Source: Phycisphaerales bacterium | Lineage (GTDB): Bacteria > Planctomycetota > Phycisphaerae > Phycisphaerales > UBA1924 | Assembly (NCBI GenBank): GCA_029260345.1 | Contig: JAJDDK010000005.1 | Span: forward strand, 434,001 to 498,000 | Reading direction: 5' to 3' | DNA length: 64,000 nt | The notes under the pieces: model-generated | Databases searched by the model: none | Told to the model about the DNA's origin: nothing | What the model saw: the letters and a program-made list of their open reading frames with translations, nothing else | Position numbers and translations under genes: made by a program | Part shown: piece after piece, positions 2,762 to 13,310 of the stretch | How the letters are laid out: the number at the start of each line of letters is the position of its first letter | Position numbering within the stretch: position 1 is the first letter of the stretch

Positions 2762-2779
2762 TTTGGATTGATCGCACAA

Positions 2780-2880
2780 CGCCCTTCACATCGGCCCTTT
2801 CCCGGTGGGAGAGGGAGTTTGAACCCTTCTCCCTCGGGAGAAGGTGGCAATGCGCAAGCATTGACGGATGAGGGGGGGTG
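2780..2880. repeat. CCCTCACC...CCTCTCCC dispersed repeat, copies 1a and 1b
   Basis: Two facing copies of a common dispersed repeat. 2780-2816 reads GCCCTTCACATCGGCCC followed by the hairpin TTTCCCGGTGGGAGAGGGA. 2826-2880 is the inverted form, with hairpin CTTCTCCCTCGGGAGAAG and the tail GGATGAGGGGGGGTG. Related copies lie at 2939-2975, 8236-8286 and 12584-12639. Apart from these repeats and the twin hairpin, nothing is seen in the 427-base gap between glmS and crcB. Confidence 0.7.
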
Positions 2881-2938
2881 CGGCGTTCGAAGCTCATGCT
2901 GCACTGATTCAGCACAACATTCGGAATGTGTACACAAC

Positions 2939-2975
2939 GCCCCTCACCCCGGCCCTCTCCCGGTGGGAGAGGGAG
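2939..2975. repeat. CCCTCACC...CCTCTCCC dispersed repeat, copy 2
   Basis: GCCCCTCACCCCGGCCC followed by TCTCCCGGTGGGAGA. Nearly identical to copy 1a at 2780-2816, which is in the same orientation. Confidence 0.7.
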
Positions 2976-8197: not shown

Positions 8198-8235
8198 TTT
8201 GCGCGACGTGGCTTGAAGTCGGGAGTAGGTGGGGA

Positions 8236-8286
8236 GCCCTCACCTGACCTCGTTGCGCTCGGCCATCCTCTCCCAAGGGAGAGGGG
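8236..8286. repeat. CCCTCACC...CCTCTCCC dispersed repeat, copy 3
   Basis: GCCCTCACCTGACCTCGTTGC...CCTCTCCCAAGGGAGAGGGG, the long form that carries a GTTGCGCTCGGCC middle. It is closest to the copy buried in a coding region at 12584-12639. Confidence 0.7.
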
Positions 8287-8291
8287 TTTGG

Positions 8292-8444
8292 CCTCCTCCC
8301 CCGCCTTGCGGGGGAGGATTGAGGAGGGGGCTATTTCTTCTACTCTCTCTCTTCGCCTCGAACGTGAAAAGCGCAAAGAGCGAAGGAGAGGTTAGTAGTT
8401 CTGTAGCCCTCCCCTGGCCCCTCCCGCGGGGCGGGAGGGGGAGG
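8292..8444. repeat. 150-bp dispersed repeat, copy 1
   Basis: Begins CCTCCTCCCCCGCCTTGCGGGGGAGG (hairpin), continues ATTGAGGAGGGGGCTA and CTCGAACGTGAAAAGCG, and ends CCCTCCCC...GCGGGGCGGGAGGGGGAGG. A second copy lies in the same orientation at 9701-9854. It stops just short of the end of the gene at 8449. Confidence 0.85.
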
Positions 8445-8448
8445 AGTC

Positions 8449-9447: not shown

Positions 9448-9541
9448 GTGCAAAACGATACCTGTGGGGCGGGTTTGGGCTTCGTTTGGCCTCGAGTAGG
9501 CCTTGCGCCAAAATGAGCCCGAAAGGGGCTATGGAATGTTG

Positions 9542-9570
9542 CCACGAGTGAAGCGCAGCGCAACTCGTGG
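9542..9570. repeat. 29-bp palindrome, copy 1
   Basis: CCACGAGT at one end and ACTCGTGG at the other, with a GAAGCGCAGCGCA middle. Identical in all 29 bases to 13094-13122. It is preceded by a short GAAAGGGGC hairpin-like motif, as is the other copy. It belongs to the 590-base gap between the lipoprotein gene at 8845 and atpD, which holds only repeats and the atpD terminator. Confidence 0.8.
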
Positions 9571-9672
9571 GAGAGGTCCGTTCTGATTTTGAGAACCCCG
9601 GAGGGGTGACGGAGGATATCGATAGAGCACTCCTGCGACCCTGCGGGGCGCCACCTTGTTGCGGAAAGCCTT

Positions 9673-9696
9673 CCACGAGTTGCGCTGCGGCTTCGC
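9673..9696. repeat. 29-bp palindrome, truncated copy 2
   Basis: Starts CCACGAGTTGCGCTGCGGCTTCGC in the reverse orientation and then breaks off into the start of the 150-bp repeat at about 9701. This suggests the larger element was inserted next to or into it. Confidence 0.6.
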
Positions 9697-9700
9697 GCGT

Positions 9701-9854
9701 CTCCTCCCTCGCCTTGCGGAGGAGGATTGAGGAGGGGGCTACTCCCTCTACCTTCTCTTTAGGGCTCGAACGTGAAAAGCGTGAAGAGGCGCGGAGGAGA
9801 GGGTAGATCAGTAGCCCTCCCCTGGCCCCTCCCGCGGGGCGGGAGGGGGAGGAA
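9701..9854. repeat. 150-bp dispersed repeat, copy 2
   Basis: Same order of blocks as 8292-8444, in direct orientation: the CTTGCGG hairpin, GGATTGAGGAGGGGGCTA, CTCGAACGTGAAAAGCG, and the strictly conserved tail of CCCTCCCCTGGCCCCTCCCG and GGGCGGGAGGGGGAGG. The middle differs by several substitutions and small gaps. No open frame or transposase inside. Confidence 0.85.
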
Positions 9855-11642: not shown

Positions 11643-12959
11643 TTACTTTGGTGAATCAAGTCGCTCAAGAATGACTGCAATCGCCGGTGGCGGCGCTGGC
11701 TCTGCACCGGTGATCGGCGTGAGCAATTCTTCAGCGCTGAGCGTGACGAGCATCGTGCGGTGGTTGGCGTGAACGGGGACGATGTCTTCGACGCCGTGGA
11801 GCCGCGCTGAAGAGACTGGGACGACGCCATCGCCGAGTTCGCTGGAGAGGGCGCGCAGGTCCTTGGCGAATGCTTCGGCGTTTTTTCCGAGCATGCGTTT
11901 GGCCAATGGCGTCTCGAAGACATCGTCGAGCTGATTCGCATCGTCCGGCGCCATCTGGCCGACGATGCAGGTGATGGCGACGTGTTCGGGCAAAGGGCGT
12001 TCGTTCAGATCAGTCAAGAATGCGGAATTGACGGCGAGGTCTTCTCCCGCTTCACCGGTTCCGTCCGCGAGAAATGCGAGGGCGCTTTCATTCTCAGGGC
12101 GCCCGTCATCAAACCAGCGCAGGAGCTGTTCTCGAATCTCGGCGACGACGCGAAGGCGTGCGAAGGGCGAGCCGTAGTTGGGTGTGCCCACGAGAATGAG
12201 ATGGTCGATGTCAGGGAGGGCTGCGTCGTCAGGTTGGTCGGCGTTGCCTGCGTAGTGCGCGTTGCGCGTGAGCACATCGCGTGAGAGCAAGCCGCCCATG
12301 GAGTGGGCAACAACGTCGATCTGGCGCGCGCCTTGTGACTTCAGTCGTGCGAGCGCCACCGCCAGCAGATCGGCGCTCGTCGCGATGCGTTGGTCATTCG
12401 GATAGTCGAAGCGCACGACCGTGTGATTCGCATGCGCGAGCGCCGGCGCGAGGTTGTCCCAGATGTCGCCGGGTTCGTCGAGACCGTGGACGAGGAGGAC
12501 GATGCGATCGGGAAGCTCGGTTTCGTCGGTGATGATCGACCAATGGGGAGTCGTATTGGCGTTCTCGTGCGTTGAGCGCTCAACCCCCTCACCCGACCTC
12601 GCTTCGCTCGGCCACCCTCTCCCCGGGGGAGAGGGGGTGTAGAGGCGCAGGCCGGTGCGGCCGTCGGCGGTGGTCGCGGCGCCATCGTGCAATTCGCGGG
12701 CGGCGTCCTCGAATGCGCGCTGCGCGCGGAGGCTCCAATCATCGATCGCGTCCGCCGCATCCGACGCGTTGCGCATCAGCCAACGGCGCACGCCGGTGGC
12801 GATGGATTCGGCGTCCGCGAGGGTCTTATCGAGCTGCTCGGCGGCGGTTTGTTGTGGCGATTTTTCCGGAGGGGCGGCGCTGCCGCAGGAAATGGCGGCG
12901 AACGCCATCGTGACAAGCGCAATCGCACACCAGAATGTTTGGCTCCGCAGGGCCGTCAT
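11643..12959 (-). CDS. Alpha/beta-hydrolase lipoprotein (lipase-like)
   Basis: A 438-residue exported protein with lipobox-like AAISC (Cys25), then a helical stretch, then an alpha/beta-hydrolase domain starting near VLLVHGLDEPGD (residue 154). The nucleophile elbow AHSMGG puts the catalytic Ser at about 220, and the domain has the look of bacterial triacylglycerol lipase or esterase-type proteins. The substrate is unknown. Residues about 107-127 (TPSPPGRGW, SEARSGEGV) are the translation of an intergenic-type repeat at 12584-12639, sitting in frame in the linker before the hydrolase fold. The start at 12959 was chosen as the first ATG before the signal; an in-frame GTG at 12965 is possible. 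Confidence 0.8.
   Translation of the reverse strand: MTALRSQTFWCAIALVTMAFAAISCGSAAPPEKSPQQTAAEQLDKTLADAESIATGVRRWLMRNASDAADAIDDWSLRAQRAFEDAARELHDGAATTADGRTGLRLYTPSPPGRGWPSEARSGEGVERSTHENANTTPHWSIITDETELPDRIVLLVHGLDEPGDIWDNLAPALAHANHTVVRFDYPNDQRIATSADLLAVALARLKSQGARQIDVVAHSMGGLLSRDVLTRNAHYAGNADQPDDAALPDIDHLILVGTPNYGSPFARLRVVAEIREQLLRWFDDGRPENESALAFLADGTGEAGEDLAVNSAFLTDLNERPLPEHVAITCIVGQMAPDDANQLDDVFETPLAKRMLGKNAEAFAKDLRALSSELGDGVVPVSSARLHGVEDIVPVHANHRTMLVTLSAEELLTPITGAEPAPPPAIAVILERLDSPK
12584..12639. repeat. Dispersed repeat inside a coding region, copy 4
   Basis: CCCCCTCACCCGACCTCGC...CCCTCTCCCC/GGGGGAGAGGGGG, clearly the same family as 8236-8286 and 2939-2975. Here it lies within the lipase-like gene without breaking the frame. 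Confidence 0.85.
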
Positions 12960-13093
12960 GCACACATCTTATGCGGCAAGGGCGCCGAGTCATTTCAGCA
13001 AGACGAGTAGGCCGGAAATGGTCCGATTGCACAATCCTCGCTCGGCGCGGACAGCCGATATTCGAAACGCCCTGAAAGGGCGCCGGAGCCTTG

Positions 13094-13122
13094 CCACGAG
13101 TGAAGCGCAGCGCAACTCGTGG
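13094..13122. repeat. 29-bp palindrome, copy 3
   Basis: Identical to 9542-9570 (ends CCACGAGT and ACTCGTGG). Confidence 0.85.
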
Positions 13123-13227: not shown

Positions 13228-13256
13228 CCACGAGTTGCGCTTCGCTTCACTCGTGG
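13228..13256. repeat. 29-bp palindrome, copy 4 (inverted)
   Basis: The reverse-orientation form of 13094-13122 with one base changed in the middle. Copies 3 and 4 therefore face each other across 105 bases. Confidence 0.8.
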
Positions 13257-13310
13257 CAACAATCCCGCGCCCCTTCGGGGCAAACGGCGTCGGACCAATT
13301 CGCGTTCAAC

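Follow-up and report, generated by a model that had tools for sequence, protein, structure and literature searches.

A unit of a genome-wide family of palindromic repeats has very probably been inserted, with the reading frame kept, into the gene for an alpha/beta hydrolase in a bacterial genome (hereafter G000; 3,402,878 bases, 3.40 Mb, in 8 contigs). The gene and other members of the family lie in the 64-kb stretch of DNA analysed here (the window; Table 1). The host is taken to be a planctomycete because the nearest named matches of the hydrolase, the one protein considered in this respect, were Planctomycetota/Phycisphaerales records.

Table 1. Positions, within the window, of the repeat units of the R1 family and of the features of the hydrolase gene.
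Feature	Position	Strand	Basis
Palindromic repeat unit in hydrolase gene, 54 nt (core 12586-12635)	12582..12635	+ (opposite to gene)	R1, 78.2 bits
Full unit, R1 family	8233..8285	+	R1, 68.4 bits; core among the 27 genome copies
Short form, R1 family, left part of inverted pair	2779..2815	+	R1, 21.8 bits, E 0.0015
R1 family, right part of inverted pair	2825..2878	-	R1, 28.4 bits
Short form, R1 family	2937..2973	+	R1, 31.6 bits
Host gene, 440-aa alpha/beta hydrolase	11643..12965	-	ORF; Pfam Abhydrolase_6, 3.2e-10
Repeat-encoded peptide TPSPPGRGWPSEARSGEGVE, residues 110-129	12579..12638	-	Translation
Residues 110-141, 32 residues versus 4 in nearest orthologue L057	12543..12638	-	Alignments; model
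Ser222 in HSMGG motif, presumed nucleophile, downstream of insert	12300..12302	-	Invariant in alignment A2
His402, presumed catalytic	11760..11762	-	Invariant in alignment A2

The repeat family in the window and in the genome

A search of G000 with a 38-nt core of the repeat gave 27 matches (≤3 mismatches), versus 0 for a reversed control pattern. The consensus of these 27 copies (TCGGCCCTCACCCGACCTCGCTNCGCTCGGCCACCCTCTCCCAGGGGGAGAGGG) had a mean column identity of 93%, and the ends of the unit were inverted (CCCTCACC and GGAGAGGG). The copies were used to build a covariance model (R1). The hydrolase unit and the full unit at 8233-8285 match R1 by construction, because both are among the 27 copies from which it was built, whereas the three other units in Table 1 were found by R1 even though they lay outside this set. 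The initial annotation had assigned the repeats at 12584-12639, 2780-2880, 2939-2975 and 8236-8286 to a single family, and R1 matched all these places. Within the window, a 28-nt core (≤3 mismatches) gave 2 matches, versus 0 in 100 shuffles, and the hairpin core gave 3, versus a mean of 0.04 in the control.

At E values up to 0.01, R1 matched at least 148 units in G000, a number that constitutes a floor, because only 150 of 2748 candidates were scored. The 148 listed units formed 72 clusters, and 78 of them belonged to inverted pairs within 120 nt. Spacing was regular: all 18 plus/minus pairs among the listed units were separated by 6-9 nt, giving elements of about 115 nt, and 14 of the 33 minus/plus pairs were separated by 45-47 nt. 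Unit length was 54 nt in 88 of the 148 cases. The hydrolase unit is single and unpaired, with a GC content of 74%; its predicted RNA fold was no better than that of shuffled sequences (z -0.81), and an Rfam search of positions 12500-12700, at E values up to 1, identified no family.

Other repeats were observed in the window. A perfect 14-bp palindrome (12571-12584; GTTGAGCGCTCAAC) adjoins the unit within the hydrolase gene and was not seen beside the other 26 copies. A 153-nt direct repeat (8293-8445 and 9701-9853; 84% identical, 1408 nt apart) contains weak R1 matches in both arms (8403-8439 and 9811-9847), and a 31-nt repeat occurring four times between 5719 and 7973, at intervals of about 700-800 nt, could, as judged by eye, encode a CPECG-like motif. 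A second palindromic family (CGAGTGAAGCGCAGCGCAACTCG plus CCCCGAAGGGGC) is present at 9517-9570, 9659-9689, 13069-13122 and 13228-13281. Inverted copies of this second family lie on both sides of a Y1 transposase gene (L093, G000:C5:684044-684388), so it looks like a transposase-linked repeat.

Three matches to PF01797 (Y1 transposase) were obtained in G000. No R1 match (E up to 0.1) was found within about 1.5 kb on either side of any of the three, and mobilisation of the R1 family by a neighbouring PF01797 transposase was therefore not supported.

The insert in the hydrolase

The hydrolase ORF matched further Pfam families in addition to Abhydrolase_6, and its N-terminus resembles what we take to be a lipoprotein signal with a lipobox. 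Translation of the ORF supported the proposal of the initial annotation that the repeat encodes a peptide in frame within a lipase-like gene (Table 1). With the protein as query, one match was obtained in G000, and 29 of the 61 genomes searched, its own included, contained matches. The nearest named relative, L057, comes from the MAG Planctomycetota bacterium isolate J020 and is 54% identical over the best segment and 58% identical in alignment A2; at this level of identity, the exact borders of the insert and any target duplication are unreadable at the DNA level. L057 has four residues (NNGA) before an aligned tryptophan, versus 32 residues here, corresponding to 28 extra residues. Conservation with L057 and L029 extends to the part of the protein before the insert, which indicates that the insert is internal to the gene.

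The insert peptide was present in none of the 23 relatives of a first alignment (24 of 38 loci, own included, the remaining 14 being duplicates or omitted for brevity) and in none of the 24 relatives of alignment A2, which took in 24 of 30 related loci and overlaps the first set. A text search for a PPGRGW-type string among all 38 ORFs retrieved only that of the window. Orthologues without the segment thus exist, as the initial annotation had anticipated, and no aligned relative was seen to carry the same residues without the repeat at the DNA level. Over residues 111-151 of alignment A2, the protein has 41 residues, versus 9-22 in the 24 others; between the flanking motifs of the first alignment, it has 45 residues, versus 16-41 in the relatives. 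The longest of these loops, of 41 residues in L036, is unrelated in sequence to the insert, so loop length varies in this hydrolase family.

The AlphaFold2 model of the hydrolase had a mean pLDDT of 74.2 and a pTM of 0.74. Residues 117-138, with pLDDT values below 50, lie between strands 105-110 and 141-144, and the model puts the insert in a predicted beta-hairpin turn adjoining the catalytic fold. Low predicted order is not peculiar to the insert, because most of residues 1-67 also had pLDDT values below 50; from residue 141 onwards, 21 of 30 ten-residue blocks averaged more than 80. Ser222, Asp379 and His402 showed no variation among the 24 relatives of alignment A2, and the catalytic roles of Ser222 and His402 are presumed from the fold family. 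The suggestion that the insert occupies a linker upstream of the nucleophile was consequently borne out with respect to order along the chain, the insert preceding the presumed catalytic residues, whereas the open linker gave way to the predicted turn.

Units in frame in other genes

The listed units were subjected to a codon-use test, trained on 38 ORFs of the window, which called for an open frame across the unit and coding-like sequence on both sides. Twelve of the 148 listed units (8%) passed, in 10 ORFs, after two minus-strand shadow ORFs lying over the MqnC units had been dropped. By comparison, 2725 of 4860 random positions at the same loci (56%) and 1733 of 3000 random positions in the window passed. 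Units are thus far rarer in genes than expected from random placement, in a count in which units of one cluster are not independent. The depletion fits loss of harmful insertions or a preference for intergenic targets, which the data do not separate.

The 10 ORFs, named with NCBIfam and Pfam, encode the hydrolase, MutS, NadA, an IscS-type cysteine desulfurase, MqnC, a RarA-type AAA ATPase, a succinylglutamate-semialdehyde-dehydrogenase-like enzyme, an asparaginase-family protein, a PrpD-like protein and a release-factor-like protein. Several NCBIfam scores were under the curated cut-offs, whereas every one of the ORFs had a Pfam family above the cut-off. Other genes of G000 thus contain such peptides, for which the initial annotation had proposed a search. 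Comparison with relatives or solved structures, made for eight of the 10 ORFs (hydrolase, MutS, IscS, NadA, MqnC, RarA, aldehyde dehydrogenase and asparaginase), supports a probable insertion in each of these eight. Three of the in-gene units had low R1 scores (28.5, 30.4 and 36.7 bits).

In MutS, about 60 residues after residue 833 are missing from the MutS of entry 7ou2, and no insert of comparable length was found in the 27 readable sequences of 29 relatives (rows L270 and L274, blank in this segment, were not counted); some relatives have up to about 28 unrelated residues at this place. The IscS insert was found in none of 29 relatives, with 24 residues here versus 3 in entry 5usr. The NadA segment comprises 101 residues, versus 35-52 in 28 of 29 relatives, the 29th having 74 residues, of which the extra ones are unrelated in sequence. 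The MqnC segment comprises 111 residues, versus 49-97 in 29 relatives, several of which have a long loop of unrelated sequence. Structures provided the comparison for RarA (70 residues versus 26 in entry 3pvs), for the aldehyde dehydrogenase (21 residues without counterpart in entry 3ju8) and for the asparaginase (65 residues versus 12 in entry 1p4k). Unrelated extra peptides were also observed in the same loops of L294 (NadA) and of L324, L327, L329 and L332 (MqnC), as if the NadA and MqnC loops, judging from their sequences, accepted insertions of several kinds. Single matches were obtained in G000 for MutS (limit 1e-60), NadA (1e-30) and MqnC (1e-60), and the IscS query identified a second paralogue, 42% identical.

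Five of the six frames were open in 22-26 of the 27 copies of the repeat. Six in-gene units out of 12 are read in the frame that encodes PSPxGRG, which has a binomial probability of 0.02 under equal use of the five open frames; this preference is only suggestive, the frames having been assigned by eye after the data had been seen. It nonetheless favours a reading, which we consider unlikely, in which the added peptides are more than tolerated and have a function, perhaps that of a flexible loop maintained by selection. In none of the five genes for which relatives were aligned was an insert common to different genomes, and the strong depletion of units from coding sequence and the low predicted order of the hydrolase insert also argue against such a role. 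More improbable still is a decaying pseudogene, or a hydrolase starting downstream of the repeat. One survey (PMC3733652) cautions that numerous REPs situated at the predicted starts of ORFs could be non-coding, but the frame in this case is open throughout its 440 codons, and codon use is coding-like on either side of the unit (scores of 22.9 and 24.6); a late start would remove the N-terminal region conserved with L057 and L029, and a pseudogene is difficult to reconcile with intact presumed catalytic residues.

The draft state of G000, in 8 contigs, leaves some room for an assembly artefact in which the unit was misplaced into the gene. We consider this highly improbable, since in-frame units occur in 10 different ORFs and vary in sequence, and an artefact would have no reason to keep the frame. 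Finally, similarity arising by chance between GC-rich sequences, without a true repeat copy, might be proposed for a unit with so high a GC content, but the lack of matches both in the shuffled sequences and genome-wide for the reversed pattern led us to reject it as having a negligible probability.

Insertion of a repeat unit with retention of the frame is, accordingly, the reading that we prefer. The inserted DNA would have preserved the frame, contained no stop codon in the frame used and landed in a beta-hairpin turn; the gene would thus have stayed open, and about 20-28 residues, among which Gly, Pro, Ser and Arg are abundant, would have been added to the protein. At least seven other genes of G000, and probably nine, would have undergone a capture of this type. 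We infer that an insertion occurred here, rather than a loss in all relatives, that the insert may be tolerated as a disordered loop, and that harmful insertions may have been removed by selection.

Distribution of the family and comparison with known repeats

Among 392 genomes of the phylum, a strict pattern was found in 2, and among 61 genomes of relatives a looser pattern was found in 3, own genome included in both cases. With 150 candidates scored in each of five other genomes, R1 gave at least 61 matches in G001, at least 29 in G031 and at least 13 in G040, and none in G007 and G004. Thirty loci were examined from the 103 matches in other genomes, and they included in-frame cases in a ThiC-like ORF (L214), an Mfd-like ORF (L228) and a glycosyltransferase-like ORF (L204), all named by eye; the matches in L214 and L228 were weak (30.3 and 32.8 bits).

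Outside the planctomycetes, the kin found were elements on alphaproteobacterial plasmids. Nine plasmid records (Neorhizobium, Rhizobium, Phyllobacterium and Azospirillum) were 82-93% identical over about 50-65 nt, and R1 scored 44.9-56 bits on four of them. These elements likewise occur as paired units, and they may correspond to the RIME of rhizobia. With the Neorhizobium copy as the query, 226 plasmid records were identified, with 848 places. No annotated gene lay under a match in the 50 listed records of these 226, some of which are unannotated or have incomplete gene tables, and the repeats are not listed in the gene tables of the plasmid records with similar elements. The plasmid elements differ from the R1 family in belonging to another phylum and in providing one in-gene case, a unit pair in frame inside a 10.9-kb CDS of Methylosinus trichosporium OB3b (WP_065083646.1). 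A plasmid search with the inverted pair at 2775-2885 gave no match, and no similar sequence was found in phage records. Two contigs from a viral collection (L353 and L354) contained the exact repeat core, with R1 scores of 81.7 and 76 bits.

Rickettsia palindromic elements (RPEs) are dispersed palindromic repeats of 100-150 bp, described from Rickettsia and Wolbachia, that are found in ORFs of many kinds of gene with the frame kept (PMC3767692). The resemblance to RPEs put forward in the initial annotation was upheld at the level of analogy: an in-frame palindrome lies within pre-existing ORFs, here 10, eight of them supported. The R1 family may therefore be regarded as an analogue that works like RPEs. 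Its host is a planctomycete rather than Rickettsia or Wolbachia, and the hydrolase unit has 54 nt and a GC content of 74%; most single units are of this length, whereas the closely spaced pairs, at about 115 nt, come within the size range given for RPEs.

According to the REP survey (PMC3733652), intragenic REPs occur in many bacteria of several phyla, often adding 20-30 amino acids or more; Opitutus terrae (Verrucomicrobia, of the same superphylum) is among the richest in them, GTAG/CGTC REPs, single or dimeric and mostly intergenic, also lie inside genes in Thauera, Xanthomonas and others, and REP families are reported for Planctomycetes. In-frame captured palindromic repeats are thus already known as a kind, and intragenic palindromes outside Rickettsia have been published (PMC3733652). 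A literature search, without most subscription papers, found nothing on the R1 sequence family in Planctomycetota.

The units of the R1 family resemble GTAG/CGTC REPs in being palindromic, short, present in high copy number (at least 148 units), mostly extragenic and often dimeric. Neither tag appears in the consensus drawn from the 27 strict copies, and no R1 unit was found beside a PF01797 gene. GTAG was found inside two of the 148 listed units and, with 12-nt flanks included, in 19 of 148, versus 125 of 740 random stretches. One of these 19 is the hydrolase unit, which GTAG follows at 12639-12642. CGTC was found inside 62 of the 148 listed units and, with flanks, in 67 of 148, versus 488 of 740 random stretches, in which it was commoner. 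The inverted pairs, preferred spacing and alternating layout are similar to those of BIME/REPIN arrays. By contrast with RAYT-linked REPINs, the units of which flank a Y1 transposase gene, no linked Y1 transposase was found for the R1 family, the sequence of which is also different. MITEs combine terminal inverted repeats with a duplication of the target site; the R1 unit has inverted ends, and no relative offered an empty site near enough in sequence to reveal a duplication.

What was first noted for a single gene now extends to about ten: an intergenic-type palindrome is found in frame in about ten genes of a single genome, in a lineage far from Rickettsia. As mutS, nadA and mqnC each gave one match, the insert-bearing proteins would perform the corresponding functions if these are present. 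For annotators, these cases suggest that a PSPxGRGW-type peptide need not be a conserved motif and can instead be a sign of repeat DNA. It is conceivable, as a speculation that we hold to be doubtful, that a palindromic superfamily common to Planctomycetota and Alphaproteobacteria, repeatedly protein-coding in both and mobilised by something other than a linked RAYT, is a recurrent source of new protein loops, including those of single-copy mismatch-repair and cofactor genes. The R1 family provides a setting in which the tolerance of such inserts, and their possible acquisition of a use, can be addressed.
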